Shown: positions 14,113-57,677 of the stretch, piece by piece
How the letters are laid out: each line of letters opens with the position of its first letter
Numbering within the stretch: position 1 is the first letter of the stretch
The notes under the pieces: generated by a model
The model's database searches: none
What the model was told of the DNA's origin: nothing
What the model saw: the letters and a program-made list of their open reading frames with translations, nothing else
Source: Mermis nigrescens
Lineage: Eukaryota > Nematoda > Enoplea > Mermithida > Mermithidae
Direction of reading: 5' to 3'
Length of the DNA: 64,000 nt
Assembly: GCA_036768485.1 (NCBI GenBank)
Contig: JAVLUZ010000813.1
Coordinates: forward strand, 186,001-250,000
Program-made: the position numbers and the translations under genes

Positions 14113-14696
14113 GGTCCAGAGCACCAACGCCCATTCGTGATAACTACCTATGTATATATATATATATATGTTTAATAGGTACCTACCACCTATTATGAAA
14201 GCGTAGTGTGTGAAATATGGAACAGGCTCCTGTGCTCACATTATTCCAACAGTTTACAGTCAATTTGAGCACGTACATAAAGCTGAGGCGAATTAACACT
14301 AATTTTTGACGCTTAATATCATCAATCACGCAATATCCATTGGCTTATACCCCCAAACCCCCAAGCCCATCTTGTATGTAGATCAGTCGTTAGCCTCATA
14401 ATTCCTCAAATTTTTCCGTTGCGCCGGATAATGAATATTAATGACATTTGCTTACTTTTTGCATTTTTTGCTCACCAAATATGTATAGTCTGTTTCACAT
14501 AACTTTGTGCTTTTACGTTCACGATTCTAAGTTGTTGTATACCAGAATTTCACGCACCAAGTTATGTGAAACAGACTATAGATATGCATGTGTATGTTAG
14601 CTCTCAAACAATTCAATAGCAGAAGCAGCTATGTATTTCAGCATATATAGAATGCTAAAACAGTATTTTTTAAGAAATTTCGAAGAAAAATTTTAA
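14113..14696. other. Intergenic, with a TATATA run
   Basis: A (TA)n run lies near 14155-14170. A pair of related words, AGTCTGTTTCACATAACTT (about 14487) and its inverse near 14560-14578, suggests a small foldback of about 90 bp. No gene is seen. Confidence 0.45.
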
Positions 14697-15012
14697 TTCG
14701 GCGCCAAAATGGCTGTTGCCAAAACGGCCCGTCGCCAAAACGGCTGTCGCCAAAACGGCCGCTGCCAAAAGCGGCCGTCGCCAAAACGGCCGTTAAGCCA
14801 AAACGGCCGTCGCCAAAACGGCCGCTCGCCAAAACGGCCGTTGCCAAAACGGCCGACGCCAAAACCGCCGTGGCCGCCAAAACGGCTCGAAGCGCCAAAA
14901 CCGCCATCGTCCGACGGCCGGCGCCAAAACGGCCGAGAGCCAAAACGGCCGTCGCCTAAAGCGGGCGTCGTTAAAGCGGGCGTCGCCTAAAGCGGGCGTC
15001 CGCCAAAACGCC
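14697..15012 (-). repeat. GC-rich 15-bp minisatellite, copy 2
   Basis: About twenty units of the CCAAAACGGCCGTCG type, the inverse of the array at 7356-7534. Unit phase is less regular, with 14-19 bp spacings. The GGCGCC plus AAAATTTT junction at its left end matches the right end of copy 1. Open frames through it (KRPSP, ATAVL) come from the unit length and are not genes. Confidence 0.85.
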
Positions 15013-15017
15013 CCATT

Positions 15018-16196: not shown

Positions 16197-16664
16197 GGCC
16201 CAACCCGTAAATCCTACTAATGAAAAAGATAGGGAGAAGAGAAAGCATGATGAGCAAAGGTGGCCTACACACGGAGCCTGGACCATGACAATCATTAGTA
16301 ACAACACCCAGAGCCTGGGAGAAGCTACGAGGAGAAACGGCAAGAAACCGTGATACGCATAGTGGCAACCACACCCGGAGTCTGGGAGAAACGGGAGAAA
16401 CAGCGAAACTATGATAAGCATCAGGTAACCACACCCGGAGACTGAAAGAAACGGGAGAAACGGCAGAAACCTTGATAAGCATAGGTAACCATACCCGGGA
16501 GCCTGGGAGAAACGGCAAAACCATGACAAAAGCATAGGCACCCTCACACGCAGGAGCCTGGGAGAAGCGGGAGAAATGGTGAAACGGTGATAAGTATAGG
16601 TAACCACACCCGGAGACTGGGAGAAATGGGAGAAACGGCAAGAGCCATGGTAAGCATCACATAG
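16197..16664 (+). mobile_element. hAT-type element (family H), left half, split by LTR element
   Basis: It starts with GGCCCAACCCGTAAATCC after the duplication ACTAATCT (16189-16196) and carries the same minisatellite as the copy at 6618-7106. It stops at 16664, where the LTR begins. The right half resumes at 31052-31229 and is followed by ACTAATCT (31230-31237). The exact 8-bp duplication across 15 kb shows that the LTR retrotransposon landed inside an already inserted hAT-type element. Confidence 0.9.
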
Positions 16665-17723
16665 TGTAAATGTAGGGGCCTGCGTCTACAAGAGCGACAC
16701 AGACCGGCCTAACATTACCTTCGAGATTTACCTAGGTACGTAGGTACTTAAGTCTACGCTTAGCGCTGGCCCCGATCGCGCAGCCCTGGATAGCTTTCGA
16801 TCTTTGGACCCTTAGAGACCTTACGGCTTCGATCCCCTCAGCCCTAATATTGCTGGCCGCTTTTAGTCGGGTGATCTCAGCAGCTACGCCCTAAGACCTA
16901 AGGCTACCTACCTAGTCTCGGTATTTGCCGCGGAGGTCAGTTGACCTATCTCAAGCTCAAGTTGAATATTTAACTTATTTTCCAATCAGTGCCTATTTCA
17001 GAAAGCTTTTTGGTTCCTAGTACGTGTAGCACAATAGACTATGAAAACAACAACATCGAGCTCTAACCTGATCAATCATCCTTAAAAATTAGATAATATT
17101 TTTGATCAATTTTTGGTTTGAGAAATAAATTAAGATTTCCAAATAGACATAAGTAAACATATGGGATTTACCTATCCGTCCACTCGGATGAGTTGCAATC
17201 CTCGACGTAGGAGTGGCCGACCTAACCCTCGGTATATCCGAAAACCCCTGGGTAGGCTTTTCTCTATTTTATTTCGACGAAGAATTCACGGCCTGGTTGC
17301 CGGACAACAACAATAAAGCAAAAAGAAAACGAAAACGTACGTGACTATACAATCGTACGACGGCCAACGAGATTGCCAACACACACTCAAAGCAACTCTA
17401 AGTACATTGGCCTCAAGAGACCATTACAGTAAAATAAACGAAGATCAAATTAACGTAATACTGAATCACTTTTATCTCAGATCGAATGTTCTCGATTAAC
17501 ATAAGCGGTATGCATTAAACAATTACTATTATCATACACTTAACTCTATGCTACCGGACAAGTATCTTAATGTTTTTTATTATTGAAAATTGGGGAAATA
17601 ATGGGAAGACCGAAGGCATAGCCCACAGTGCACTATCGTAGATAGCTACTAGTATTGGCTATGTTATGGCTATCGCGAACTGCTAAGGCAAGTTCGCCTA
17701 CACGTGTAACTCTCGCAGTTACA
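16665..17723 (-). repeat. 3' LTR of the Ty3/gypsy element
   Basis: 1059 bp, starting TGTAAATGTAGGGG and ending GTTACA on the plus strand, so both ends show the TG...CA rule. It aligns along its whole length with 30010-31051. Differences include scattered substitutions and short indels, the largest near 17380-17400. It contains several TAGGTAC words. Short ORFs inside LTR sequence are not genes. Confidence 0.93.
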
Positions 17724-17732
17724 CTCCCCCAC
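17724..17732 (-). promoter_or_regulatory. Polypurine tract
   Basis: On the minus strand the sequence GTGGGGGAG lies directly before the start of the 3' LTR. This is the expected place and composition for the plus-strand primer of reverse transcription. Confidence 0.7.
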
Positions 17733-18528
17733 GTATAGAAAAAAATTAGAAACGAAGTGGAGAATTTTTTCGGGGGTATACCAACGCCACTAGCGTCTAC
17801 AACGCTTCTACAACTCGGCACTCCGGCGTTCGCAACGCCTCTACTCTGGCGTCCGCAACGCCTCATCCTGAGCGAACGTGAAAAACGAAAATAAAAGAAC
17901 AAAAAAATAACAAATAACGATAACAAATAACGGTCAACGCATGACCTCGTTCGCACTCAGGAAACTCTCTGAGCAACACTCTCAATGGCGCTAGGTATAA
18001 CTATATTGTTGCCCGAGTAATGATGAACTCCGGTCTTGGACAGCATTGCATAATATTTGATCATGCTGTCCAATTAGCCTCCTTCAGTCCCCGGGTAATG
18101 AGAAAAATTTTGAGTTGAAAAAGTTTTAAGATTGGGTATAAATTAACCCCTTGTCCGTTAAAGAGTTAAGGTACCATAATAGTAACACCGCTAATTGAGC
18201 AAAAGAAAAATTAAGACACGGAATGATTAGGCAAGATTATGCTGAGCAAAATTAAAGTCACTGACGAGTTAAAACAAGAGGTAACGATAAAAACGAGAAA
18301 AAATGGCAAATTATGCTAGATAATGGGGAAAATACGAGCACCGTCAAAGAAAAATTTACAGCAAGAAAGAAAAAATGACAAGAGAAAAATTTACACAGAG
18401 AATAAATGATACGTGAAGTCCTGGGATCCACATCAGGACGAAAAACGAAAAAAATGACGAAAAAGCTGCTGGTCGAATTTGACGCCGATCGCAGAGTTCC
18501 AAAAAGTTCTGTACGTCGAACTTGTGAA
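17733..18528 (-). other. 3' untranslated part of LTR element
   Basis: About 800 bp between the last coding frame and the polypurine tract. Two small minus-strand ORFs (18258-18563 and 17633-17956) contain F/L/V-rich stretches, but these follow from T-rich DNA. I see no signal peptide, fusion peptide, cysteine pattern or glycosylation cluster that would support an envelope protein. Confidence 0.55.
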
Positions 18529-19104
18529 TTAATATCGATCCTGATAATTGGCCTTTGAGCCATGCGGTTTTCCGCGACGTCGTTGACGTTGAAAATAATC
18601 GCGATCCGATTTGGGTTCGCGACGCGTATTCAAACGCTCGCGATATTGGTATGGCGATTGCCTATGCCCGTACATATGTTGGCGTAAGCGTCGATGTGGA
18701 TCGACTGGTCGATCGTCGTCCTCAAAATCGTCGTCGTCCTCGTAGTCGTCCGCGTAACGACGCGGTATAGATTGCACCGGAGTAAATAATTGCTCCGGCG
18801 TAAAACCATAAGTTTGTTCACGTGAAGATTCGCGTGGACGCTGTTGTTGATTGCGTAACAGGCCACGGTTTAGGCAAAAGTGGACCTGGTCGAGGTTGTG
18901 GCTGATAGACCCCGGTGGCTGATTGACCTTGTTCCAACGGTGAGCGATACGACTGATCCCATTGCGGACGTTGACGGGATTGTGACCGGCCCTGATGAGT
19001 TCCGCGGTTTGACTGAGGCTGACGGCGATATTCATAAGGCTGCTGCTGTCGCGAGCGCGACAGATGACCAGCATCGGCCTGTGAATACGCCTCGGAACGC
19101 TCAC
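18529..19104 (-). CDS. LTR element third ORF, C-terminal segment (frameshifted)
   Basis: Only the part after about 18860 reads as real sequence. It continues the protein of the upstream frame (18818-20185) after a frameshift near 18840-18880. The segment is rich in R, Q, D and P, with an acidic run of alternating D and E (YEDDDDFEDDD) and a basic end (FQRQRRRGKPHG). It has no recognised domain. Low complexity and charge suggest a disordered nucleic-acid-binding tail, by inference only. The frame ends in a stop at 18529. Confidence 0.5.
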   Translation of the reverse strand: MSVPRRIHRPMLVICRARDSSSLMNIAVSLSQTAELIRAGHNPVNVRNGISRIAHRWNKVNQPPGSISHNLDQVHFCLNRGLLRNQQQRPRESSREQTYGFTPEQLFTPVQSIPRRYADDYEDDDDFEDDDRPVDPHRRLRQHMYGHRQSPYQYRERLNTRREPKSDRDYFQRQRRRGKPHGSKANYQDRY

Positions 19105-20185
19105 GCGATTCCGTAAATTGTTGCTGCTGCCGCGGTTGGGTCTGCGGTCGTGTGTGTTGCTGTATATGTGGTTTTACTTGTGTCTGCTGTTGTACTTGTG
19201 ATTGTGAGCGATGATGCGTTTGAGCATAGCGTTGCCGGGATGATTGCGGTTCTTGCCGCCTAGATCCCTTTTGGCCTAAATGCGCTCTTAATTTAGCTGC
19301 AACTTCAGCTTGAACAAGTCTTCTGACTCGTTGCTTTTCCAAATTTTTTAACCGACGCAAAGTGTGCTCGGATTTTGAATCGTAAAATCGATTCAATTTA
19401 GCCTTATGTTTGTCTTCTGACATATGACAAACTTCTGATGATTCAGCGAGAGAACCGGCGGCGCGTAATCTCATCGCACGCCTTGGCATTTCTGTCGCCA
19501 AATTTTCACAATCGCGTTGCTCGATCGTCATGCGTGCTCTACGCATTTCAATCTGTGCCTCCAGAGAGAGATCGACTTTGGGCATATCAAGGCTTGCTGA
19601 GGATCCGCTTGGGTCCTGCGAGGATGCCTGCCGTCTCTCTTTTCGAATTTTCTCTAACTCACCTTGAATTCGGTGTTTGAGGTAAAACACAGATTTTTGT
19701 TGACCTCGGAAACGGTCAAATTGAACCGGCACTTCAAGTGGCGGGTCGGTTGCTAACCGAATTTGCCGAATCATGTTATGTAAAACATGTGGACTTTTGA
19801 TTCGTGCCGTTAACTCCGGGAATTCCGGGAAAGCCTCACTTGGCGAAGGTGTATAAGATTCACCAAGGAAAGCTACGCGCAACATACGACGTAGCTGCTC
19901 CACCATGCGCCAGCCTATCGCGGCATTGCCGTAGGCATACGCAAAGTAGTGGAACTTCCTGTCCAAAAATTCCAAAAGCACTGTAGCGCGCATGACGTCT
20001 ATTGTAGAGAAGATCGTCATGTGTCGATACTTTGAATCGTATAACGATTGAAATTCTCGAAAGGTATCGAAAATATCGACCATCTGACGCGTCGATATTA
20101 AGATTGGCGCTAGGTGATCAGGCGCTGGAGACATCCTGTGCGGATAGAACTCTGGAAGAACCTGATGTGCAACGCCATCAATCAC
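18818..20185 (-). CDS. LTR element third ORF, Q/R-rich segment
   Basis: An open frame of about 455 codons with no ATG at its upstream end (the first codon of the run is GTG). It is most simply the continuation of the frame ending at 20187 after a frameshift. The first 160 residues are ordinary, partly hydrophobic and look folded. Then come a K/R/E-rich probable helical stretch and, in the last 150 residues, a Q-, R- and S-rich low-complexity region of the RNA-binding type. I do not recognise the family. Position after integrase and inside the LTRs makes it part of the element, not a host gene. Confidence 0.6.
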   Translation of the reverse strand: MIDGVAHQVLPEFYPHRMSPAPDHLAPILISTRQMVDIFDTFREFQSLYDSKYRHMTIFSTIDVMRATVLLEFLDRKFHYFAYAYGNAAIGWRMVEQLRRMLRVAFLGESYTPSPSEAFPEFPELTARIKSPHVLHNMIRQIRLATDPPLEVPVQFDRFRGQQKSVFYLKHRIQGELEKIRKERRQASSQDPSGSSASLDMPKVDLSLEAQIEMRRARMTIEQRDCENLATEMPRRAMRLRAAGSLAESSEVCHMSEDKHKAKLNRFYDSKSEHTLRRLKNLEKQRVRRLVQAEVAAKLRAHLGQKGSRRQEPQSSRQRYAQTHHRSQSQVQQQTQVKPHIQQHTRPQTQPRQQQQFTESRERSEAYSQADAGHLSRSRQQQPYEYRRQPQSNRGTHQGRSQSRQRPQWDQSYRSPLEQGQSATGVYQPQPRPGPLLPKPWPVTQSTTASTRIFT

Positions 20186-20186
20186 C

Positions 20187-21209
20187 TCACTCGGTGCGTC
20201 TGAGGTGTGGGTGCACTACCAAATACTGTAGCGGAACTTCGTACAGCATCATTCCGGTTGTAATAAAGAACCGTATGCGCACAAAATATTGGTCTGGGTA
20301 AAACAATCGGTTAAAAACGCTCATTTTGCTGATAAATTGAGGTGCGGGCGCACAATTGACATCAGCCAAAGGCTGTGCAATTGTAGACCACACTAAAGGA
20401 CGCGAGGGTGTGTCAGTCGTAGCCGCGTAATGCAGATGTGCTGCGTACACCCAGTCGAAATGCACTTGGGCACTTTCGACCAACTGGTCGTACAGACGCG
20501 TTCCAGCGACTTCACCCAGATAAGAGCGTAACTCGTGCAATACGTCAGGCGCAATATAGCACGGTGCTTCACGCGTCATGGTCTCCATCATGGTGAAAAA
20601 GTGTTGCACATAGCGCGAGCAATTTTGCACTCTCGTGCTTTCTTCCGCGGAAATACGTTCGCGAATGGCTTGAATATGCGCAGGTACTGCGACTTCTAGA
20701 TTCGATGGTTGGTTTTGGATAGCCTGTGGTTGGATATTCGCCACAGTACTCGACACTCCTGTCATGGCCATAGGAGCCGTGAAACAAGTAGTAAGTGCTA
20801 CTGAGCTCGACACGCCTTGTGGCGCGGAATGGGACGCGACTTGCGTGTACAACGCTACTTGCGGTACTTCATGTGCGAGTAATGTGCGTTGTGGTAGCGG
20901 CGGAAAGCCTATAATCTCTGTCATGATAACATCGGGCTCAGATTGTCGCTCTACCCAATCCGGCTGAGAAGTCGGTAAAGGTATGAGCGAACTGATGCCC
21001 AAGGGTGCCTGCTGGTCCGCCGCAAGCGATTGTGAGACAATCGGTTGCGAAACGGTAGTAGCCTCTTTTCGAGCCATTGCCGCGCGTGTGGTACGCGGTG
21101 GCAACAAGTTTGCTTGTCTTTCCGCCTCAGCGTCAGATAACGCCATCACTAAGCGTTTAGGAGATAAATCGTTGTCCTCAGTGGAGATAGATGGTTCTAT
21201 TTCAACCAT
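20187..21209 (-). CDS. LTR element third ORF, middle segment
   Basis: An ORF of 340 codons with an ATG at its start, but probably the continuation of the exonuclease-bearing frame across frameshifts near 21200-21380. The first 190 residues are P/S/T/Q-rich and look disordered. The last 150 look folded, with several aromatic residues (VHFDWVYAAHLHYAA). No family is recognised. It ends 2 bp before the next open frame, and that frame carries on without an ATG, which points to one long ancestral ORF. Confidence 0.6.
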   Translation of the reverse strand: MVEIEPSISTEDNDLSPKRLVMALSDAEAERQANLLPPRTTRAAMARKEATTVSQPIVSQSLAADQQAPLGISSLIPLPTSQPDWVERQSEPDVIMTEIIGFPPLPQRTLLAHEVPQVALYTQVASHSAPQGVSSSVALTTCFTAPMAMTGVSSTVANIQPQAIQNQPSNLEVAVPAHIQAIRERISAEESTRVQNCSRYVQHFFTMMETMTREAPCYIAPDVLHELRSYLGEVAGTRLYDQLVESAQVHFDWVYAAHLHYAATTDTPSRPLVWSTIAQPLADVNCAPAPQFISKMSVFNRLFYPDQYFVRIRFFITTGMMLYEVPLQYLVVHPHLRRTE

Positions 21210-21296
21210 GGGCGAATCGTAAGGAATATCGGTGTCTGCGAAGAAATCGCAGAAGCTGGGGTACTCGAGCTAGTTGGTTTGGACTTAGGTTCGGTA

Positions 21297-22694
21297 TCAG
21301 GTGCATTGGACCGGGCCCAAAACTGAGTCGGCAACGGCCTGCAAACCCTGAACTTGTAGGTCAGGATTGTTGAACACATTAGCGTGAGCCAACGCTTCCG
21401 TTACAGAGGCAACGGTGGTGGCTGCAGCTATAGCTGCTGGCGGTTGCGGAGCTGGACCATAAAAGTCCTCAACTGTGATTAACTCTCCGCCATCAGAATC
21501 AACTTCGACTTCAGTCGCCGTGCTGGTCAACTGACCCCGTGGTGGTTTGCAAGATGACAACGGTATACGCACTCTGGCTTTCGGGCCGCTAGCTTTAACG
21601 TGCCCTTCATCGCCTTTAAACGAAATTGGCATAGGCTGTCTATCGTTGGTAATGTGATTATTTTGCGAGCAGCCTTCTATCAATATGAAGACATTGATAG
21701 TTATCAAGGCATCCATCGCTAAATAATGTTGCATATCCCGAGTTAGGGGTAAACTCCATGCCTGTCCAAAATTATCTGGCGCGGTAGGATCAATAGCCAT
21801 GTCGAAGAAGAATTCAGCCAAGCGCTTTAACGTGTGTGAATGCGCTGTGATACGTAAATGACGAGTAAACGCTCTCGCCAAGGGCTGAATATCGATAAAA
21901 TTTGCACTAAACGGATCTTTCCAGTGCAGTTTGTTGCGAATCTCTGCGTCAGGAATCGCCAAAATTTCCTCAAAAGTTGGTCCGTAAACATAAAAATACG
22001 CAAGTCGGTCTTGCGTAGGGTCATAACAAACCATATATACGTTTGGTAAACGCGTTTCGAGCAGCTGGTGAAGCCCAAATGGAGGTTGTGGGAACTTCAC
22101 AAGGTCCCAGCAGAACACATGACCGTTCGCGCTCGCAACTTGGACGTAGCGTACGAATGGGCCATGGAGGTCCTGATAGGTGGGACATAGCTGCTTAAAA
22201 CGCAGATCCCAGGTCTTATAACCTCTGCCTCTTCGGTCATTAACAAATTCGGAATCGTAGCCTAAGAATAACGTGTCATTGGTCATGTTAGATGGCTGAA
22301 TCAAAGCCAAAATGGCCCCAAAAGACTCCTGGTCGGTGGTGATTAAAACAGTGGGTAGAAGTCTCTTCTTTGGTACACGTGGGGTAGCCAAAGGAAATCT
22401 ACCAAATCTGTTCTCCCACCAGAGCTCTTGGTCGTTAATACGTTTACTATGATTTGTGGCTATATGTGTGGGTTTATGTGCTATTATTTTTGCGGTAAAT
22501 GCCTCTAAACCGCCAACACGACTATGGTCATTTTGTGGCAGCGGGTCTGGTACAACCAACCCCCGCTCCAAAGCCATATTGGTCAAAGCCGAACGAAACT
22601 CATCTAGGGACGCGGGATCACGCCCCTCAAATTTGCATCGGCGACCAGCTGCCTCCAGCAATGCCTCCTTGCTTGGGGTACCTTGTGCAGCCAT
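21297..22694 (-). CDS. LTR element ORF with DEDDy 3'-5' exonuclease domain
   Basis: A 465-codon ORF whose start (ATG at 22694) overlaps the last 90 bp of the integrase frame. Residues about 140-340 show the order and residues of a DEDDy 3'-5' exonuclease (RNase D, WRN, Mut-7 and EXD families). Motif I is LGYDSEF with D147 and E149, motif II is YDPTQDRL with D229, and motif III is QHYLAMDAL with Y324 and D328. The strand FIDIQPLA before motif III also fits the fold. Such enzymes remove nucleotides from RNA or DNA 3' ends using two metal ions held by the acidic residues. All four acids and the tyrosine are present, so the domain could be active. The C-terminal 120 residues are low complexity. 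I know of no standard Ty3/gypsy gene of this kind; capture from a host is an inference. Confidence 0.85.
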   Translation of the reverse strand: MAAQGTPSKEALLEAAGRRCKFEGRDPASLDEFRSALTNMALERGLVVPDPLPQNDHSRVGGLEAFTAKIIAHKPTHIATNHSKRINDQELWWENRFGRFPLATPRVPKKRLLPTVLITTDQESFGAILALIQPSNMTNDTLFLGYDSEFVNDRRGRGYKTWDLRFKQLCPTYQDLHGPFVRYVQVASANGHVFCWDLVKFPQPPFGLHQLLETRLPNVYMVCYDPTQDRLAYFYVYGPTFEEILAIPDAEIRNKLHWKDPFSANFIDIQPLARAFTRHLRITAHSHTLKRLAEFFFDMAIDPTAPDNFGQAWSLPLTRDMQHYLAMDALITINVFILIEGCSQNNHITNDRQPMPISFKGDEGHVKASGPKARVRIPLSSCKPPRGQLTSTATEVEVDSDGGELITVEDFYGPAPQPPAAIAAATTVASVTEALAHANVFNNPDLQVQGLQAVADSVLGPVQCT

Positions 22695-24055
22695 GGGTCT
22701 GCAAAAGGGAAAACGTTAGATAATGGTACGGCATGTGCTGTTTTAGAGCCATTTAATAAACGTATAGGCGCGCAGTCCTTAGCTTTTTGTTCCCTGCCCG
22801 GTAAGTCCTCAAAACTTATGACTACTGCCGGGGCAAGAGGGCGATGTGGTAATTTTACCAACACAAAATTGCCAGGAACGTACGCGTGTTTTTCCACAAT
22901 CAAATCAGAATAAGGAAGTTTAGGCTCAGGCAGAAGTCTATTCCTGTGAACGAGATGAGTGATGAGAGGATTATAGACATATGCGATTTTCGCAGTTTCA
23001 GGCGTAGGTAAGTCGATAATTCTATATGGTCCCACACGTTTGGGTGATAGTTTACCGATTTTGGGTTGAATGACTGAGGTATTATTAAGATAGACTATAT
23101 CCGAGAGATTAAAATTTGTGTGCGTTACGGACTTGTCATATTGTGATTTTTGCTGCTTACGCGCTTGAGTTAGATTTTGAGACGCAATTTCATGTAGATC
23201 TTGCAAAGTCAGCTTTAAATCAATGACGTATTTTTCCGCAACAGATGGTAAATTCGGATTTATCACGAAGTCATTTATGAGTAAAGTGTCAAGTGGAAAT
23301 GCTGGTTCGCGACCATAAAGCATTTCGAAAGGAGATATGTTCGTTGATGATTGAGGAGTCGCACGATATGCAAATAATGCGAAAGGTAGAAATTGTTCCC
23401 AATCATACTGGGATCGTGCGCTCAGCTTAGACAAACCATCAATCAAAGTACGATTATAACGTTCCACCAACCCATCACACTGGGGGTGATATGGGGTTGT
23501 AAATATTTTTTGAACGTTTAATAGTTTACAAACTTCCGAAATTAGGGTAGATGTAAAGTTTGACCCCTGATCTGTCAAAAATTTCTTGGGAACTCCATAA
23601 CGTGGTATAATTTCTCTTAGCAATAAATTTGCGATAGTTGTTGCTTTTATGTCAGAAACAGCAAAAGCTTCCACGTATTTTGTAAAATAATCCATAAAAA
23701 CTACAATTTGGTCGTTTCCGGAGGGGGATCGCGGCATATGCAAACAATCGCACGCAATGAGTTCAAAGGGCGCGGATACTTTGATTGGTTGCAACGGAAC
23801 GGATGTGGAATTTAATGCGACCTTACGTTGTAAGCACACATCACAATTCCTACACCATGCGATCACATCATTTTCCATGCGCGGCCACCAATAACGCATT
23901 TGTATGGCGGGCAAGATTTTGCGCGATGAAAAATGAGCTCCGAAAATAGAGTCATGAAATTCCGTTAATATAAAGCGACGCAAAGATTTGGGTATGACTA
24001 TTTGATGAACGACAGTTGGTGAACGCTTAGGTTGGAATCTGACAAAAAAGTACAT
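22604..24055 (-). CDS. Integrase of the Ty3/gypsy element
   Basis: A 483-codon frame. The N-terminal zinc-binding module has H34, H41, C71 and C74 in the usual HHCC spacing. The catalytic core has D103 (ACDCLH), D162 (TDQGSNF) and E198 (LVERYNR), a D,D-35-E triad. A GPY/F-type module follows, with GPYRI at 342-346. The last 90 residues contain GNFVLVKLPHRPLAPAVV (395-412), which resembles the start of a PWWP/Tudor-like barrel; this is tentative. The ATG at 24055 is probably not the natural start: the frame joins the RT frame through a run of six T near 24040, where one base has been lost or gained. Integrase inserts the reverse-transcribed DNA into chromosomes. Confidence 0.92.
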   Translation of the reverse strand: MYFFVRFQPKRSPTVVHQIVIPKSLRRFILTEFHDSIFGAHFSSRKILPAIQMRYWWPRMENDVIAWCRNCDVCLQRKVALNSTSVPLQPIKVSAPFELIACDCLHMPRSPSGNDQIVVFMDYFTKYVEAFAVSDIKATTIANLLLREIIPRYGVPKKFLTDQGSNFTSTLISEVCKLLNVQKIFTTPYHPQCDGLVERYNRTLIDGLSKLSARSQYDWEQFLPFALFAYRATPQSSTNISPFEMLYGREPAFPLDTLLINDFVINPNLPSVAEKYVIDLKLTLQDLHEIASQNLTQARKQQKSQYDKSVTHTNFNLSDIVYLNNTSVIQPKIGKLSPKRVGPYRIIDLPTPETAKIAYVYNPLITHLVHRNRLLPEPKLPYSDLIVEKHAYVPGNFVLVKLPHRPLAPAVVISFEDLPGREQKAKDCAPIRLLNGSKTAHAVPLSNVFPFADPWLHKVPQARRHCWRQLVADANLRGVIPRP

Positions 24056-26399
24056 CGTTTACGAGAAAAAATTCATCACGATATTTTTTCGTTGTTAAGT
24101 CATTCAATGCGATGCGAATTTTATGCAATTCGTCATCTGCACGTTGCTCAGCGAGTAAACGCGCAGGTGTTAGCATTTCCGCTTTTTCAGCATCGGTAAG
24201 TAACAGGCGTTCGCAAAATGTAGGTGGTTTAGTATTAGTAGGATCGGTTTGCGCAGTAGGATTATTATTTTGCGCATTTGGATGATTAATTGGTGCAGTA
24301 GGCGCGTTATCGCGCGATCGGTCAGGTGGAACCGATTCATCATCTGACTCAGAGTCTTCCGATTCTAAATTTGCGATGTTAACGACATTTTTGCGCTCGA
24401 GTTTATATTTTCGTTCTGCATGATCATATTTAGGATGTCGTGAAAGAAGATCAGCTGCGCAGTTATATGCACCAGGAACATAAACAATGTCATATTCGTA
24501 TTCTTGTAACTTGAGACCCCAACGGCGTAATCGACTCGATGGGTCTTTAACGTTTACTAGCCAGGTTAATGCTTGATGATCAGTTTCGACAATAAATTTT
24601 TTACCGTAAAGATAATGTCGATAATGCTTGATGGCCCACACCACCGCTAGTGCTTCTTTTTCCGAAGTAGCATAGTTACATTTGGCAGAATTTAGCACGC
24701 GACTAGCGTAGCTAAGAATAAAACGATTTTTGGATGGTAAATGTTTTTGCGTCAAAATAGCACCTAACGCATAGTTACTTGCGTCAGTTGTTAAAATAAA
24801 TTGGTGCTCATCGTCGAATTTTGGTAGTTGCAAAATAGGTGGGGACGTAAATGCTTTCTTCAGAAGCTCAAAGGCGGTTTGGTGTTCGGCCTTCCAGCAA
24901 AATTCGACATCTTTACGAAGAAGATGGAATAACGGTTTAGCGATTTTAGCAAGATCTTTAACGAATTTCTTAAACCATTGGACTAAGCCAAGGAATTTCT
25001 GTAAGGATTTAACGGTTTTTGGTACGGGAAACGAGATTAAATCTGCGACTTTGGACATGTCAGGAGCGATGCCCATTGCACTGATGCTGTGGCCAAGAAA
25101 TTTTACCTCTGCATGCGCAAGATGGCATTTATCAGGCTTTACACGTAAGTTTGCCTTTTTAAGAGCAATAAAGACATTTTCAAGATCTTTTAAATGTTCT
25201 TTGAAAGTACGAGAAAAAATAATTATGTCATCGATGTAAACGAGACAAGATTTCCAATTTAGACCTGCGAGCACAAGCTCCATTAGTCTTTGGAAATCTG
25301 CGGGCGCATTCTTTAAACCAAAAGGTAAAACTTCAAATTCGTAATGACCAACAGGACATATAAATGCAGTTTTTTCGCGAGATTTATTATCGAGTGGAAT
25401 TTGCCAGTATCCAGATTTTAAATCTAGTGTGCTAAAATATGCAGCATTGCCTAAAGTATCAAAATAATCGTCTAATTGTGGAAGAGGATAAACTTGCGTT
25501 TTAGTAACGTCATTTAACCGTCGATAATCGACAACTGGCCTAAGGGAACCGTCCTTTTTTCCTATGAGAAATAATGGACTTGCCCATGGGCTAGTTGTAG
25601 GTCGAATAATTTTATCCGCAAGCATTTCATTTATAATTTTCTGCATAGATTCTCGTCTAGAATGTTCAACACGATAAGTTTTTCCAACAACGGGCGGATT
25701 ATCCCCTGTGTCAATATGATGTTTCATCAAGGGGGTACGTCCGAGAGGTTCGTTTTTTAATGCAAAAATTGAGTCGTATTTTAAACATAGTTCACGAATT
25801 TGTTGCTGTTGTCTAGAATCAACGGCGGAGCCGTTTAAAGCTTTATTTATTGATGCAAAAAGTTCTGGTGTCCTATCATCAAAAGATGAAACATGTGACA
25901 CAACTTCGGCATCAGAGGTTAAAGAACCTATTATTTCACCAGAGTCAATGCGAATTGGCGCTTTAGAGATGTTACAAACGCGAACAGGTATTAAAGGTTG
26001 TGAAGCATCGACTATAGACGGAGCAACAAAAAGTGAAGTTTTTTCCATAAAATCGGGATTTGGTTCGAATAATGCGAAATCAAAATTGCAAGAACCGTGA
26101 CTTATATAGCCAGGTGTAATTAATTCATGCCTAGGTTGTATTATAACAGGCTCAGGTAACGAAACATGCACACACACAACACCAGAGGTAGTTGCGTTGG
26201 GTTTCGCGCGAAATTGCAATTTTTCATGAGATGAGAGTAAATTAATCTTTATGCCGTTTATAAAAGCACAGCGCTCAATAGGATTAACCCACATGAGTGC
26301 GGATTCGCAAAAATCATATCCTAAGAGCATGTCTTCCGGCAAGTGATCAATTATAGATACTGAGGTAGAAATAGATTGTTCCGCGATGGTTAAAGTCAT
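24027..26399 (-). CDS. Reverse transcriptase-RNase H of the Ty3/gypsy element
   Basis: A 790-codon frame. Residues 1-30 (ending LLGYDFC) are the C-terminal end of the protease domain, cut off by a frameshift from the frame at 26407-26770. The RT spans about 220-450: LDLKSGYWQI, FGLKNAP and the catalytic YIDD at 388-391 are present. RNase H follows at about 535-650, with TTDASNYALG, SEKEALAVVW and ETDHQALTWL. The end is an acidic and N/P-rich linker before integrase. The natural start is upstream, in the protease frame. It copies the element RNA into DNA and degrades the RNA strand. Confidence 0.93.
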   Translation of the reverse strand: MTLTIAEQSISTSVSIIDHLPEDMLLGYDFCESALMWVNPIERCAFINGIKINLLSSHEKLQFRAKPNATTSGVVCVHVSLPEPVIIQPRHELITPGYISHGSCNFDFALFEPNPDFMEKTSLFVAPSIVDASQPLIPVRVCNISKAPIRIDSGEIIGSLTSDAEVVSHVSSFDDRTPELFASINKALNGSAVDSRQQQQIRELCLKYDSIFALKNEPLGRTPLMKHHIDTGDNPPVVGKTYRVEHSRRESMQKIINEMLADKIIRPTTSPWASPLFLIGKKDGSLRPVVDYRRLNDVTKTQVYPLPQLDDYFDTLGNAAYFSTLDLKSGYWQIPLDNKSREKTAFICPVGHYEFEVLPFGLKNAPADFQRLMELVLAGLNWKSCLVYIDDIIIFSRTFKEHLKDLENVFIALKKANLRVKPDKCHLAHAEVKFLGHSISAMGIAPDMSKVADLISFPVPKTVKSLQKFLGLVQWFKKFVKDLAKIAKPLFHLLRKDVEFCWKAEHQTAFELLKKAFTSPPILQLPKFDDEHQFILTTDASNYALGAILTQKHLPSKNRFILSYASRVLNSAKCNYATSEKEALAVVWAIKHYRHYLYGKKFIVETDHQALTWLVNVKDPSSRLRRWGLKLQEYEYDIVYVPGAYNCAADLLSRHPKYDHAERKYKLERKNVVNIANLESEDSESDDESVPPDRSRDNAPTAPINHPNAQNNNPTAQTDPTNTKPPTFCERLLLTDAEKAEMLTPARLLAEQRADDELHKIRIALNDLTTKKYRDEFFLVNDVLFCQIPT

Positions 26400-26406
26400 G
26401 TTTACT

Positions 26407-26770
26407 CTATAACGAACTGACTGCAGTGATTTCGCCTACACCATGTACGACTTGTGAGACTTGTTTAGGTGGTAAATTAAAACCAAGACGTAAGAATGCA
26501 GACGTGGTCATCATGGTGACCTGTGAACCCGTATCTATGAGAGCAGGTACGTCAACGCCATGAACTTTAACGAGAATGGTGGGTAAATTTGTCCCAGCAT
26601 GGCTTACAATAGGAATATTAGGATCTAAAGTCTTAGATGGAGGTAGATTAATTTTTTCGTAAGTTGCGAGACGACGTTGTAAACGTTCGTACTCTTCGAG
26701 AAATTCTTGTGACGCGAATAGATTAGGACGCAGCGCTAGATTCTGGCCCTTTCGCAGTAACCGTGTTTAC
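26407..26770 (-). CDS. Protease of the Ty3/gypsy element (frame-separated)
   Basis: This frame has no ATG and reads through the aspartic protease active site ALIDTGSQVT (DTG codons at 26527-26535). It ends in TAG at 26407-26409. The protease domain then continues in the next frame, which starts at 26399 (LLGYDF is the conserved C-terminal motif), so one base has shifted near 26410. On its left it overlaps the true gag frame (26723-26923), where a normal gag-pol frame change could occur. The enzyme would cleave the Gag and Pol polyproteins as a dimer. Confidence 0.8.
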
Positions 26771-29424
26771 ATCATGAGGAGATGTAAGGGTTGGCTGCGG
26801 TGGGGGCACATTCATGGTGGGTTGGTTATCTGCGGTATATGTGACATACGGGCGATTAAAATTGTTATCGCTGCGGTAGTTCGAGTTATAGTATGTCCCA
26901 CGCTGTTCATTTGGGAATTGCACAAAAGGTGTATTTTGGCGCGGTTGATTATTATAACGATTATCGTAACGCGAATTTGGATAATTAGCACGCGAATTTT
27001 GGTAATAATCATTACGATTTTGCCTAAAATTCGATCGTGATTGCTTTGATTCAAAGCGATTATCATTATTCGCATAGTTAGATGAACGATGTTGACTAGA
27101 GTTACGATATCGTGATTGAGATCGATGTCTATTTTGCGAATTTGAACGCGATGGCGAACGATTTTGACGCGAAAAGAACGCAATTGGCTGCGATTGCGAG
27201 CCATAGAATTATTATTTCGATCAGCTTGGGTATTATGATTAGCATTATTAGACGTTTCTTGCCTTTGCCGCGTGAAACATTCCTCATAAATGTGACCTAT
27301 GCGCTTGCAAAAGGTGCAATATTTACGAGAAGAACTTTCTGGTTTCTCAGCACGCGAGGAGCGATGAAACGTTCTATGACGCGAACGATTTGCATCATTT
27401 TGATTAGATGCACGAGGAGTATCTTTAGGTACTGCACTGCCTACTGGAGCAGCTGTTACCGATACGTAAGGCGTTACTGCCTTTTTATCCTCAAATTCTT
27501 TGTTAGCAAATTCAGCGCTTAGCGCATTGTCCAAAAATTCAGCTAATGATGCTCTAGGTTTTTTGTGATATGCCTCTTTCGAAATGTGTGGTAATAAACC
27601 TTCTTTTAATTGATGTCGCATTAAATTATTGAAATGTGGCGAGTCAACTTCAAGATAAGGATCAGATTTAATTAACTCTTCGCGAAGCGAGAGATAATAA
27701 GCTTTAACCGATTCGTTAGGCTGCTGTTTGTGTGACAAAAAACGATTAAAGAGCGCACCGGTGTCCATTGGACAAAATTCGGTTATTAGCGCTTGTTTCG
27801 TTTTTGAATATGATTGTTGTATATCAGCAGGTAACGAACGGTATAAACGCATAGCATAAGGATCAAGAAATCCAGTTGCAAATTTTAGACGATCAGCTTT
27901 GTCAATATCATAGGTATTGGCAAGTGATTCGAATTCTGCAAAATATGCTTTTATATCCGTTTTATCGCCATCAAAAAATTTTTTATTAGCAATTGCAATT
28001 TGCATTTGTGTCAAAAATGGTCCGCGATTCAAGGAATCAGCGAGACGTGATTCACCACGCGAGCTGTCAGATGAAGAACCTGAACTATAACGATGACGTC
28101 GTCTGCGCGATCTGCTTTTGCGACGCGAGCGACGACTGCGCGGGCGATCATAGCTATTAGATGAGCTTTCGTCAGAAAATTTGACATGTTTTCTCCTACT
28201 AGATGATTCAGGTAGAGGTGCAGATTCATTTTGCAAATGTGCAGATTCGTTGTTAATGCCAGATAAATTTATGTCAACTGGTTGCATTTCGATATTAGAA
28301 GAATGCAAAATAGGATTATTAGGTGGTATTTCCACATTTATGGGATTAGGTACATAGTTATTTGGTAATATTTCGCCTTGAGGTGGAAAATACTGCAGCG
28401 GTGGTGGATTCAATTGCTGCTGCGAATTCGTAGTAGAAGGATTAGGTACGAAAGAAGGCGCATTACGATTTAAAGGCAGCAAAGGCCGAGATCGCGACGT
28501 CTGCGAAATCGGTACCGACGGCTGCGAAATCGTAGGTATGTTATCCGAAAAACCCGAGTTTTGCACTGGTTGCAAACCCGTGTTTATAGGATTCTGTGAT
28601 AAATTAGATATCTCAGGCGCGCGATTTGTACAATTTTGAATGATATTTTCAGGAACAGTTTCCGAAGGTGAGCGTGAATTTGATGCGCTGTTGCCAGTGG
28701 ACAACAGTGAAGATGCACGATGCGTACTTTGCGCACGATTCGCACTTTGCGCATTAAATTCAGAAAAATTTGCGCTATCGATTGAGTGGTTAACGCGCTC
28801 AGATGAATTATTCTCTATGCGATTCAAAACTGGTTGGGGTTTAAGCATAGTGCTTAGCTCCAGACGCAGTTTACGCATTTCATCCGCATTTTCCTTTTTA
28901 TCTTGATCAACGCGCGTAGAAAGGTCCGAAAATTGCAAATGAATAGCTTGTAATGCTTTTAAAATAAGATCATTAGTCACATTAGCATTAGCACGCTCTT
29001 TGTCGGCATTTATGCTGTGACTATGAACACTTTCTACGTCAGAATCGAGATTTTCGCGCTCCGAACTGGTTTCAGGATTATTTGCCGTATTAATAGTAGT
29101 CGTATTATCAATCATTGTATGATTTGATGAATTATCGATATTGGGATCCGATCTAGTTATCGAAGTTTGATTAATGCGCGATCGCATGGTACTCAATAAC
29201 AGTTCATCTTCGGACTGTGTATTGCTCGCGGCATTTAGTGACGCGGGTAATTTATCATTATTCGCCTTACTAGTTACGTCTCTCGTAATTGTGTCATTAC
29301 TCGCAGAATTACACGCGCTATTAGAGTCAACAGGCGCGGTAGGTAATTGGCGAGCTGAAGTAGGTGGCGTAGAAGGTTTTTTCAATTTAGCGGGCGGTGT
29401 CCGCAAAACCTTTTTTCCTGCCAT
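26723..29424 (-). CDS. Gag of the Ty3/gypsy element
   Basis: An ORF of 870 codons starts at 29424. The first 430 residues are S/N/P/Q-rich and partly R/S-rich. A conserved Gag-like region follows at about 490-660, including DIKAYFAEFE and KQQPNESVKAYYLSLREEL. A single CCHC zinc knuckle has C703, C706, H711 and C716. After about residue 740 (near 27180) the reading frame becomes hydrophobic nonsense. The neighbouring frame gives an R/S/N-rich tail that runs on to 26723, so a frameshift near 27170-27195 breaks the gene. Gag forms the particle and binds the RNA. Confidence 0.85.
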
Positions 29425-29994
29425 TTTTAGGTATCAAAAATGTCGAAAAATATGGCCTTGGGTAAAAATAAATTTCAGTACGTCGAAATTTTGTCCAAAA
29501 TAAATGTTTCGAATTTGGCCTTTGTCGATCCGAAAAACAGGTTTTTCCACGTAAATAGTATTTCCTTACGTGAAGTAAGATATACCTGACGTGAAATGAT
29601 CGAAAACAGGTAGGACTAAGCCTAAAGCGCAAGAAAGTGTACGTGGTTAGAAAAACAGGTAGGTAAGAACCTAAATGACGGAATTTCGTCGTCAGAAGAG
29701 AAAAATGATAAATCGTCGCCTGAGGGTCGACGTTTATAGAAAAATGCAAGCGTGAGAGCTGCCTTCGTCGATAGAGATCCGACGGAAATAGAAAAATAAC
29801 GATGGCTTTACCACGATACACAAAATCTTTACCACGGACGCTTACTTAAATTGCGCACTGCCACGATCGCGGTCGATACAACAACAAAGGTGAACGAAAT
29901 GTTACACATTTTTAGATGGCCAAAATGATAAATTTTTGGATCGAAAAATAATTTTACGATGATTGATCAGTTCGGCTGTAGCTAGCAGCCTAAA
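29425..29994 (-). other. Gag leader of the LTR element
   Basis: About 570 bp between the primer binding site and gag. No ORF is convincing. It should contain the packaging signal, but I cannot identify it by eye. Confidence 0.5.
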
Positions 29995-30009: not shown

Positions 30010-31051
30010 TGTAAATGTAGGGGCCTGCGTCTACAAGAGCGACACAGACCGGCCTAACATTACCTTCGAGATTTACCTAGGTACGTAGGTACTTAAGTCT
30101 ACGCTTAGCGCTGGCCCCGATCGCGCAGCCCTGGATAGCTTTCGATCTTTGGACCCTTACAGACCTTACGGCTTCGATCCCCTCAGCCCTAATATTGCTG
30201 GCTGCTTCTTGTCGGGTGATCTCAGCAGCTACGCCCTAAGACCTAAGGCTACCTACCTAGTCTCGGTATTTGCCGCGGAGGTCAGTTGACCTATCTCAAG
30301 CTCAAGTTGAATATTTAACTTATTTTCCAATCAGTGCCTTGTTCAGAAAGGTTTTTGGTTCCTAATACGTGTAGCACAATAGACTATGAAAACAACAACA
30401 TCGAGCTCTAACCTGATCAATCATCTTTAAAAATTAGATAATATTTTTGATCAATTTTTGGCTTGAGAAATAAATTAAGATTTCCAAATAGCATAAGTAA
30501 ACATATGGGATTTACCTATCCGTCCACTCAGATGAGTTGCAATCCTCGACGTAGGAGTGGCCGACCTAACCCTCGGTATATCCGAAAACCCCTGGGTAGG
30601 CTTTTCTCTATTTTATTTCGACGAAGAATTCACGGCCTGGTTGCCGGACAACAACAATAAAGCAAAAAGAAAACAAAAACGTACGGACTATACAACCGTA
30701 CGACGGCCAACGAGACTGCCAACAACACTAACTACATTGGCCTCAAGAGACCATTACAGTAAAATAAACAAAGATCAAATTAACGTAATACTGATATCAC
30801 TTTTATCTCAGATCGAATGTTCTCGATTACACAAGCGGTATGCATTAAACAATTACTATTATCATACACTTAACTCTATGCTACCGGACAAGTATCTTAA
30901 TGTTTTTTATTATTGAAAATTGGGGAAATAATGGGAAGACCGAAGGCATAGCCCACAGTGCACTATCGTAGATAGCTACTAGTATTGGCTATGTTATGGC
31001 TATCGCGAACTGCTAAGGCAAGTTCGCCTACACGTGTAACTCGCGGTTACA
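30010..31051 (-). repeat. 5' LTR of the Ty3/gypsy element
   Basis: 1042 bp, TGTAAATG...GGTTACA on the plus strand, matching 16665-17723 throughout. It should hold the promoter and polyadenylation signals, read leftwards. The difference from the other LTR, about 2% by eye, is the age signal of this insertion. Confidence 0.93.
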
Positions 31052-31229
31052 ATGAGGTAACCACACCCGGAAAAATGTTTCTCTCGGGAGAAACGTTTCT
31101 CCCAACGGGAAAATTTTGGCGGGAGAAACGTTTCTCCCAGGATAAATGTTTCTCCCTCCAGGGGAAATTTTGATGGGAGAAACGTTTCTCCCACCGGGGG
31201 AAACACTAGTAGGATTTACGGGTTGGCCC
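31052..31229 (+). mobile_element. hAT-type element (family H), right half
   Basis: It contains GGTAACCACACCCGG, then GGGAGAAACGTTTCTCCC palindromes as in 6980-7078, and ends in ACGGGTTGGCCC. The duplication ACTAATCT follows at 31230-31237. It belongs with 16197-16664. Confidence 0.9.
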
Positions 31230-31237
31230 ACTAATCT

Positions 31238-32676
31238 CGTATAAATGTACCTACTTTAATTAATAATTTCTTGCTTTTAGAATATGTGATTTTGTATGAT
31301 GATTCATGTCGAATGTTTATTTATAATTGTATTGCATTGTATATTAATGTTTCTTTTCTTATTGTGTTCTTTTTTTGTGCGACGAAAATAAAATATTTGT
31401 ATTGTATTTGTATTGTGAAATGTGGAAACCATCTCGTGAAAGTATCTCTTCAGACGGCACTTACTTCTTAGACAAAATTATGTCCTTTTATCCTCAACGA
31501 AGCTTCTGAGAATTTCAAGAAAGACATAAATGCAATATGCCAGAAGCTCCGTTTTGTGAGCTGAATTTATGTGATTAAGCTTAATGTAAGCACGGTACAT
31601 CCTTTATCTAATATAAAGGCAATTTATAAATATTTCTTAAAAACTGTAGTTATAGAATTTCGAGAATGTGTTCCTCAGTATTGCCATTTGCCAACCTAGA
31701 GATGAAAGTTCGGCGCACCCACCGACAACCCGACCCGACCCGAAAACTGGATACGCAGGTTGGGTCGGGTCCGGCAGAATGCAGAACTCCTCGGGTAACG
31801 GGTTGAGGGGTGCGGGTTGAGATATTTCAGAAAAGATTACGTATTTGCAAACATTTCTACTCAATAGAAATTAAAAGGTATGCTGAATATTTTTGCGCTC
31901 TGTACAGATTGCGTCTTAAAAAACTTCTCAGTATGACGACAATTGACAACAAGAGAAGACAAGTCTACAAAAGATCCGCATATCATGCGTTCTAAGAATT
32001 TTAGTATTCTGCAATGGAAATGTCACGCGCTTCACGCCAGTCTATTTTATCTATCCAGCTAATTTTAGGACCATGATTCGGATGATTTTGTAAAAACTTT
32101 AACGTTAAAATTAGAGATTTCAGTGCTTTTTTTGCAAAATTTTCCCGGAATTCTGCCCTGAACCCCGCTCGAGTTTGCATAAGCGCTCGACCCCGGATCC
32201 CCCAGCCGCCAAAAGCGAAGTTCCGTTATATCTCTCTCTAATCTAAGGTCCTTCCCGCGGCCGCAGACCCTTAGCCTCAAAAGAGGTTATCCGTTAAATT
32301 CTCTTTAATCTAAGGTCCTAACCACATATTAAAACTGACAGTAATTAGTTGCAGTCATGTGCAAATCAGTGATCGGACCGCGGGTACTTTGGACCCCTCG
32401 ACCGAGGCCGAGACCTTGGGTAATGCCGAGGGTCAAGATTATATACCTATACCCATAAATAGTACTCTTAGAATATTTTGTATGCACATGAGCTAGAGAA
32501 TAATCGTAATGTTAAACACTTTATTGAATGTCAAACAATTCATTCATATTTTAAATAAATATATTTTACCCTCGTTATTAAGGAGCGTGGCGACTAATCG
32601 AGCTGAAGAGCCGCAATGCGTTACTTCTAATTAATTTGATCAATATTTCAACTCTACATACCTACATATTTCGACC
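31238..32676. other. Intergenic and LINE 5' region
   Basis: No gene is seen. Around 31690-31830 a C/G hexamer-like palindromic segment pairs CCCGACCCGACCC with GGGTCGGGT. About 32085-32330 is a dispersed repeat related to 40684-40822, 41384-41518 and 52430-52560. About 32365 resembles the end of a CAGTGATC-type hAT element. The LINE 5' untranslated region presumably lies in the last few hundred bases; its exact start is not visible. Confidence 0.5.
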
Positions 32677-33552
32677 ATGGGTAAAAAAAATGGCGTACCG
32701 AAGATCACGGATACCAGCCTACGTTCTAAGTCACCATCTCGAAGGTCCAACTTTGATTTACTTGATGATACGAACGATAATTCTTGTGATTGTATCATTT
32801 GCTACAAGTTAGTTTCTGATGACGACACTGCCTTATTATGCGATTTTTGCGACCGTTGGGGTCATACTTCTTGTTTGAAAGTTAATGATCATGATTATGA
32901 AACTTATTCAAAGCCCGATTCCACTTTCTATTGTTTCCACTGTAAACCAATTGTGAAAAAATATTTGCATATTGAACGTCGCTTAGATGATTTTGCTACT
33001 AAGCTTGCCGATTTAGAAAAGAAAGTTGATCGTCTTGAACATTCTCGAAATTCTCCTACCAATTATGATAAAAACGAACTATCTGCTCTGATTAATGATG
33101 CTATCGAAAGAGATTCTAAGAAATGTAATGCTGTTCTGTTTAACTTGCCTTTATCGAACAGTGTTGAGGACATTGATCAGGTCAAACGGCTAATCGATTC
33201 TCATTCTGATGGTCACGATCTAGTATCATCTGATGTTACACGCGTCTTTCGTGATGGTCCCATTCACGAAAACCGCGTCCAGTTTGTCAAAGTTTGCCTA
33301 GCGTCGGTTCAGGCAAGGCATCGCTTCGTTTCCTTGATCAATAAGACAGTCCGCGTTAAATCCAAAGACCAACTTTCGCGTTTGCGGTGCCGTCCTGATT
33401 TATCATTCCTTCAAAGAAAACGTCAACGCGAACTGGTTTCCGAGCTCAACGATCGTAAATCTCGAGGTGAAGAAGGTCTTTTTATCGATTTTCGCGCCGA
33501 TTGTGTTAAATGCAAACCGAACCGTAATATTAATAACCAACTCTTCACCTAG
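32677..33552 (+). CDS. LINE ORF1 protein with PHD finger
   Basis: 291 codons, starting at an ATG in good context (ACCATGG). A C4HC3 PHD-type zinc finger has C39, C42, C55, C58, H63, C66, C86 and C89. A coiled coil follows at about 93-118 (LDDFATKLADLEKKVDRLEH). A C-terminal RNA-binding-like region at about 130-280 includes NAVLFNLPLS. PHD fingers occur in ORF1 proteins of CR1-type LINEs, so this is the RNA-binding chaperone subunit of the element. The stop is TAG at 33550-33552, and ORF2 continues in the same frame. There are no breaks. Confidence 0.9.
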   Translation: MGKKNGVPKITDTSLRSKSPSRRSNFDLLDDTNDNSCDCIICYKLVSDDDTALLCDFCDRWGHTSCLKVNDHDYETYSKPDSTFYCFHCKPIVKKYLHIERRLDDFATKLADLEKKVDRLEHSRNSPTNYDKNELSALINDAIERDSKKCNAVLFNLPLSNSVEDIDQVKRLIDSHSDGHDLVSSDVTRVFRDGPIHENRVQFVKVCLASVQARHRFVSLINKTVRVKSKDQLSRLRCRPDLSFLQRKRQRELVSELNDRKSRGEEGLFIDFRADCVKCKPNRNINNQLFT

Positions 33553-33576
33553 GTAGTCGCGCCCCTTTCTCGTACT

Positions 33577-56645: not shown

Positions 56646-56674
56646 TATGATGAAGATGTCCAACTAAATCTAAC

Positions 56675-57677
56675 CTATTGCTTGTACGAAAAAATCGCGA
56701 GCAGCTTCGCCCGCTTTATTTTTAGCTTTACACGTGAAACGCATTTTGTCCAAATTGATCACTTCCGGTATTTGCAAAATCTGATTATTTTCGCTAAATA
56801 TGAAATCTGAAGTTGTTTCAGCATTTACATCAACGCCGTCTATTTGCCACGTGACCTGCGATGAAAAAACATTTGTGATGCAAGATATACACAAAATAAA
56901 AAAGGAATAATAAGATAAAAAACATTTAGTACCTGAGGATGAGGATTGCCAAATACTAGGCACTTCAAAGTCACAGGCTGCTTATGAATGACATCTACAT
57001 GGCTAGAATATTGCGAGTCTCTGAAGGTCGGAGTTACTAAACAAGTCAGCATAGTAAATAAAAGATTAATCAGTTGAGAATTTTAAAATGTTCCGCGCCT
57101 GAAAAGCTTACCTAAAACACTCAGGTAAATATTTTTGTGACTTTCGCCCGCCTGATTTCTGACGATGCAAGTGTAGATTCCTTCGTTGACTAAATCAGCC
57201 TTTCTAATGTATAATTTTTTGCCCTCGAGGGCCATTTGCACGTTTGCAGCTGTTTTTTGAACTTCTGCATCTTCCTGGAATGATTGCAATTGAATGAATT
57301 AGTTCGAAGAGCAAATTTTTTAGGGTAAGTCAATTCAAATTCCTTAAAAGCAAATAGGCGAACAATCAGTAAGAACAAAATTTATTTTGCTTGACGCTTT
57401 TTCTATGTCGAAAAAGGCGACATTTAACAAAATTTCTTTGAATATAAAGAACTGAAACTGTAGCAGCTCTCGTTTTCTGACCTGTTTCTGCTTATTTTAC
57501 GATGAGTGTTATTAACATGGTTTCACAAAAAATTTAATTTTCATAGAAAAAAATTTGCTTTTACTTTGATCCATGTGATTCTCGATGGAAAGTAGTCGTT
57601 TTTTGGCGAACAGTTCAAAGTAGCGAGTGAACCAAGAGACACTTCAACGACTTGGTCTCCATCAAGCACTGGGGTGG
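56675..57677 (-). CDS. Ig I-set domain protein, four internal exons
   Basis: Four exons read on the minus strand with consistent GT-AG sites and phases: 57565-57677, 57112-57274, 56933-57036 and 56675-56855. Exons 1+2 make one complete I-set domain (NC in TLNCSPKN, W in ITWIK, then GIYTCIVRNQAGE). Exons 3+4 make a second (TLKCLVFGNPHPQ, VTWQIDG, FTCKAKNKAGEA). Each domain is split by a phase-0 intron before the tryptophan, and domains join at phase-1 introns, the pattern known for hemicentin, titin and similar adhesion or matrix proteins. The first exon lacks 5' context and the last ends in a donor, so the gene runs on in both directions. I found no further exons; neighbouring DNA is repeats. 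The exact protein cannot be named. Confidence 0.88.

Follow-up and report, generated by a model that had tools for sequence, protein, structure and literature searches.

Does a reading frame lodged inside a Ty3/gypsy retrotransposon of Mermis nigrescens encode a 3'-5' exonuclease, and does that protein belong to the element? We addressed this for an ORF found in a 64,000-nucleotide stretch of genomic DNA (the window, to which all positions refer). From the comparisons below, the ORF very probably forms the N-terminal portion of a third gene (ORF3), located at the env position in a Ty3/gypsy family of many copies, and encodes a DEDDy exonuclease that has all of its catalytic residues and stands nearest to the WRN, Egalitarian, EXD2 and Mut-7 side of the exonuclease family.

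The element is 14.4 kb long and lies, with all of its features, on the minus strand. It is bounded by a 5' LTR of 1042 bp (TGTAAC...TTTACA; 30010..31051) and a 3' LTR of 1059 bp (16665..17723), which differ by 1.8% substitutions (19 over 1041 aligned columns); a purine-rich tract, ACGTGGGGGAG (17724..17734), adjoins the 3' LTR and resembles a polypurine tract, a role assigned by its sequence. The gag frame (26812..29433) was recognized from a codon-score plot and a match to Pfam Retrotrans_gag at 8.6e-5 (23.1 bits, cut-off 24.1), and is continued in a different frame (26723..27208) by a stretch that follows the codon-score plot, appears basic and nucleocapsid-like by eye and matched no Pfam family. 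There follow an aspartic protease with a DTGS motif (26407..26766; Asp_protease_2, 5.4e-7), reverse transcriptase (RT) with RNase H (24027..26435; RVT_1, 3.6e-36; RT_RNaseH, 2.2e-35) and integrase (22604..24058; Integrase_H2C2, 1.2e-19; rve, 4.9e-12), the last in a frame that differs here from that of RT; pol of the window copy is divided between two frames near 24,03x-24,06x, a point at which 17 of 30 other loci stay open, with no stop.

Two LTRs, gag and the order protease-RT-RNase H-integrase identify the element as Ty3/gypsy. Between its flanks (ACCTCAT and CTATG) no clean repeat was found as a target-site duplication. Minisatellites with GGGAGAAACG-like units lie on both sides of the element (16302-16657 and 31072-31193), so that a duplication may have decayed or been rearranged there, and since the other Ty3/gypsy features are present, its lack was not taken to exclude the assignment. 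Elsewhere, the window holds a LINE-type element (32635-36345) that is oppositely oriented and lies some 1.6 kb past the LTR element, with a PHD-finger ORF1 (Pfam PHD, 1.9e-6) and an endonuclease-RT ORF2 (RVT_1, 9.8e-35); GCCAAAACGGCCGTC-type units in tandem, spaced mostly 15-16 bp apart (14688-15013); and an ORF that resembles an exon, encodes an I-set immunoglobulin domain (56670-56981; Pfam, 2.7e-7) and may belong to a host gene. Neither Rfam nor tRNA scans gave any hit in the whole window. The assembly report gives a size of 524 Mb, 867 scaffolds, a repeat content of 84% and a heterozygosity of 6.6%, and also records that mRNA-seq reads were produced (PMC10989877).

The original prediction placed a 465-codon ORF between the LTRs, oriented like the element and with its start overlapping the integrase frame; both the ORF list and the genomic copies agree with this (21297..22694, the first 91 nt overlapping integrase), and D147xE149, D229 and Y324xxxD328 were located exactly where they had been claimed. 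The exonuclease domain itself spans residues 112-345 (21660..22361), as delimited by motifs, Pfam, the joint profile described below and conservation. These 465 codons are a truncated view of the gene, closed by a stop in the window copy: by codon-score plot, ORF3 continues in the same frame beyond two stops (20187..21269), probably further in another frame (18818..20215, Gln-rich and charged by eye) and possibly to an end in the third frame (18529..19173), the last two pieces without any Pfam match. Among the 91 best-scoring genomic copies, 19 have an open frame of 1390-1397 residues at ORF3, including 7 codons that precede the ATG, and at 14 of the 30 loci it was still open where the extracted flank ended. 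Pfam envelope families found no match in the ORF3 pieces of the window copy.

Membership in the DEDD clan, which the original prediction had read from the motifs, held when homologous ORFs and a joint profile were brought in, but the window ORF taken alone stayed below the Pfam cut-off: PF01612, the sole Pfam family matched by the ORF and by the excised domain at E<=10, was hit at E = 0.13 with the full ORF and 0.045 with residues 100-350 (12.5-14 bits; cut-off 23.6). Of 26 genomic copies, the window's own included, 24 matched PF01612 at E<=1 (best 0.015), and no other family was matched. Searches of the PDB with the window ORF or a profile of its close copies yielded no DEDD protein, and hhalign with the close copies alone gave a probability of 0.9; when an RNase D profile from enterobacteria was used, the best 12 rows listed were all shuffled sequences, the domain being absent from these 12, and hhalign returned nothing. 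In a large protein database the full ORF found no match at E<=0.001 among 8000 candidates, and for residues 112-345 the 425 candidates included no match at E<=10. No relative was recovered from IMG/VR scans using the ORF and RT as queries, and no NCBIfam match with the ORF; a PHROGs search gave a single weak match to a family of unknown function. AlphaFold, supplied with the single sequence without an alignment, returned a pLDDT of 34.

In the genome (523,963,438 bases, 860 contigs), PF01612 matched 79 times at E<=1, and 46 of these matches were over the cut-off. Three of the 46 form one spliced locus (C728), whose best piece matched EXOSC10/Rrp6 at 1e-32; a further one (L116) could be assigned to neither group, and many of the others are long ORFs present in repeats. 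Capture of a host gene, the origin suggested by the original prediction, is so far a candidate: Rrp6/EXOSC10 is the only host DEDD gene that was identified in the genome, whereas the joint profile points to WRN, Egalitarian, EXD2 and Mut-7. When a copy of the window family (L083) was compared by blastp with a database of 30 extracted ORFs (L112-L141, two of them pieces of the Rrp6 gene), 27 matched at E<=10 and 23 at E<0.001, the best at 1.7e-9. Five of the distant ORFs so matched were submitted to Pfam, and all hit PF01612 above the cut-off (3.6e-10 to 3.6e-5; 24.1-40.4 bits).

A joint alignment of 16 sequences, 4 from the window family and 12 from distant families, left D229, Y324, A326 and D328 invariant and D147 and E149 conserved in at least 90%; two of the 12 distant ORFs (L121 and L125) aligned without one ExoI motif residue. 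The profile built from it matched WRN at 1e-11, Egalitarian at 1.4e-7, EXD2 at 1.1e-6 and a Mut-7 homologue at 1.2e-6 in the PDB, and hhalign against five PDB DEDD proteins gave a probability of 97.4. Tests with close copies fail where the joint profile succeeds; the distant families thus supply the bridge to the DEDD clan. That the motifs occur by chance in a protein unrelated to DEDD exonucleases, such as a degenerate envelope, would accord with the low direct Pfam score and the lack of matches among the scored candidates of the large database, but is scarcely credible and was rejected in view of the blastp homologues, their PF01612 matches above the cut-off, the reach of the joint profile to WRN and the hhalign result. 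As judged from these alignments, what the Ty3/gypsy element contains is a DEDDy-type 3'-5' exonuclease domain.

The domain recurs throughout the family. A search of the genome scored 91 exonuclease copies from 2616 candidates, of which 5 have in-frame stops; this list is the best-scoring part, and is therefore biased towards intact copies. A corresponding search for RT scored 57 copies from 5370 candidates, and the exonuclease domain lies about 1.34 kb downstream of every one of them (57/57), in keeping with the expectation that other copies of the element would carry the ORF. In 23 of the 57 a scored exonuclease copy begins 1335-1345 nt downstream; at the other 34 the exonuclease is encoded at the matching spot without exception (34/34), in some cases split between frames. 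Given the reported heterozygosity of 6.6%, and since five of 30 loci duplicate the sequence of another locus, part of the copies could represent the two haplotypes of a single insertion.

Related gypsy families also bear the ORF: an integrase-like ORF was seen by eye upstream of the exonuclease ORF at 15 of 19 loci, and RT plus integrase were present in all four upstream stretches examined (4/4), with RT-ORF pieces of more than 300 residues showing 32-57% identity to the RT of the window. In two exonuclease-bearing families the integrase ends in a PWWP domain (L127:2-1135 and L121:3-974; Pfam, 1.5e-11 and 9e-14), which is a histone-reading tail and not a chromodomain. The corresponding tail of the window integrase (22697..22882), aligned to four related-family integrases including the two with a Pfam PWWP, is PWWP-like, diverged and shortened, and has no Pfam PWWP match of its own; one literature search found no report of an integrase PWWP tail.

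Substitution patterns gave a second line of evidence on the same 30 copies, 25 of which are distinct. D229, Y324 and D328 are present in all 30, D147 in 28 and E149 in 29, the deviant copies having N147 (2/30) or A149 (1/30). Pooled pairwise over the 25 distinct copies, dN/dS in residues 112-345 was 0.082 (jackknife SE 0.005), against 0.38, 0.24 and 0.28 in ORF3 residues 1-30, 31-111 and 346-462, respectively, and 0.050 in integrase. The integrase value comes from 13 distinct copies, 17 having been reduced by removal of identical rows and of L100 (out of register, 68% identity), with which it becomes 0.218 (SE 0.17, 14 copies); because integrase was measured solely in the open-frame copies (17/30), a low value is favoured. 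Constraint on the exonuclease is accordingly near that on integrase and far above that on the rest of ORF3 as measured. The proposal that the acids were kept by selection on the domain thus agrees with both the residue counts and the dN/dS.

A passenger gene fragment, captured once and of no function to the element, would be consistent with the window copy, whose pol and ORF3 are interrupted by stops and frame breaks, but this most improbable reading was rejected in view of the domain at the same place behind 57/57 scored RT copies, its dN/dS of 0.08 and its presence in related gypsy families. Instead, comparative sequence evidence indicates that the predicted exonuclease gene is a real, conserved and selected component of the gypsy family.

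The histories of ORF3 and pol seem to differ. In the same 13 copies (from L082-L111), dS is 0.42 in the exonuclease and 0.17 in the adjacent integrase, and identity to the window is 98-99% for the scored RT copies and 84-96% for the scored exonuclease copies. Our guess is that recombination between lineages with different ORF3s lies behind this mismatch.

What the exonuclease would act on is a matter for graded proposals; countering silencing, trimming the element's own nucleic acids, proofreading and binding RNA are all possible roles. One of these dispenses with catalysis: the DEDD fold might bind RNA without cutting it, like Egalitarian, Maelstrom and EXD1, and serve RNA transport or packaging. 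Egalitarian, an inactive DEDD protein, is indeed among the top PDB matches of the joint profile (1.4e-7, as above); inactive relatives, however, usually lose their acids, whereas here nearly all 30 copies, and the majority of the distant families, retain the tyrosine along with all four acids. Maelstrom and EXD1 are described as members of the DEDD group that are inactive but still bind RNA (PMC5408684). On balance we regard binding without cleavage as improbable.

An active exonuclease, the reading that we prefer, would trim 3' ends in trans, a step proposed with less assurance than the identity of the domain. Ranked likeliest, though still on the doubtful side of even, is that its target would be RNA 3' ends in silencing directed at the element; ranked second, and slightly more tentative, are 3' ends of RNA or cDNA that the element itself produces. 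By analogy with ExoN in nidoviruses, the enzyme might also provide trans-acting 3'-5' proofreading or end-trimming of reverse-transcription products, which we think improbable as well. If true, proofreading could help to account for an element of 14.4 kb in which the best-scoring RT copies share 98-99% identity and ORF3 is variable; we know of no earlier retroelement with a proofreading nuclease of its own.

Expression of ORF3 was considered from signals around its start. Just upstream of the ATG lies a putative 3' splice acceptor, TTTTCCCTTTTGCAG (22699..22713), separated from it by ACCC (4 nt); it is the sole occurrence of [TC]10NCAG in the element, where TTTTNCAG occurs twice, and TTTTGCAG-ACCC-ATG is present in 30/30 copies. 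Some related families, L114 and L127 for example, have pyrimidine-rich YAG sites upstream of the ATG, which are less distinct in others. The donors GTAAGT, GTGAGT and GTATGT are absent from the 5' LTR and leader, in which weaker matches occur (GTAAG at 4 places, AGGTA at 6); for want of a textbook donor, trans-splicing or a weaker donor would be required. The conserved TTTTGCAG suggests that ORF3 would be translated from a spliced subgenomic mRNA, whether cis-spliced or SL trans-spliced, with its acceptor just upstream of the ATG. An mRNA made through its own acceptor would make ORF3 a separate auxiliary protein and not a domain of Pol.

A rival reading is a Gag-Pol-ORF3 fusion that would be packaged with Pol and arise where integrase and ORF3 overlap, through a -1 frameshift. 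The integrase frame extends 91 nt beyond the ORF3 ATG in 30/30 copies, and upstream of the ATG the frame of ORF3 has 7 open codons, preceded by a stop at -24 to -22 (30/30), so that a frameshift there is possible; dS is also low (0.073) in ORF3 codons 1-30, which overlap integrase. Yet only 20 of 30 copies have TTTCCCT, a slippery-like heptamer, in the frame of integrase, as against 30 of 30 for TTTTGCAG, and CCC sites are poor frameshift sites. We consider the fusion unlikely, and favour the spliced subgenomic mRNA.

Among known DEDD proteins, WRN is the top PDB match of the joint profile, with the ExoII and ExoIII regions aligning; it is a helicase-linked host repair protein, whereas no helicase was found in the Mermis element. 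Egalitarian, EXD2 and Mut-7, likewise matched by the joint profile (1.4e-7 to 1.2e-6), are host genes. Relative to E. coli RNase D, the motifs of the retroelement domain are spaced further apart in the alignment. One source treats a DnaQ-like exonuclease as a well-known accessory domain of LTR transposons (PMC6338049). Closest in layout are the bdelloid rotifer LTR retrotransposons Juno and Vesta, for which, along with Athena/Terminon, DEDDy ORF3s were described in 2017 (PMC5408684); this kind of ORF is thus already known. In Juno and Vesta, too, an RNase D-like exonuclease ORF stands downstream of pol, several element lineages have one, and the DEDDy ORF of the Mermis element occupies the same ORF3 position. 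The rotifer motif is given there as DEED (PMC5408684), whereas that of Mermis is DEDDy, and the Mermis element is further set apart, in a comparison made by description, by a dN/dS of 0.08, a long ORF3 overlapping integrase, an N-terminal exonuclease and an acceptor-like signal.

A literature search of titles and abstracts, covering few subscription papers, found no exonuclease ORF of this kind in nematodes. A comparable arrangement in a nematode LTR element is that of CERV, a protein of Cer1 in C. elegans, which has its C-terminal half encoded at the env position and is made from a spliced mRNA with TTTCAG or TTGCAG at an exon 5 acceptor (PMC10309623); the acceptor-like signal of the Mermis ORF3 resembles these CERV acceptors (PMC10309623). 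What is new here is the nematode host, Mermis nigrescens, together with the long ORF3, the evidence of selection and the putative splice signal. With the domain behind 57/57 scored RT copies, constraint close to that on integrase and a clear hypothesis of expression, such a family makes the use by a retroelement of its own 3'-5' exonuclease, and the target of that enzyme, directly testable.
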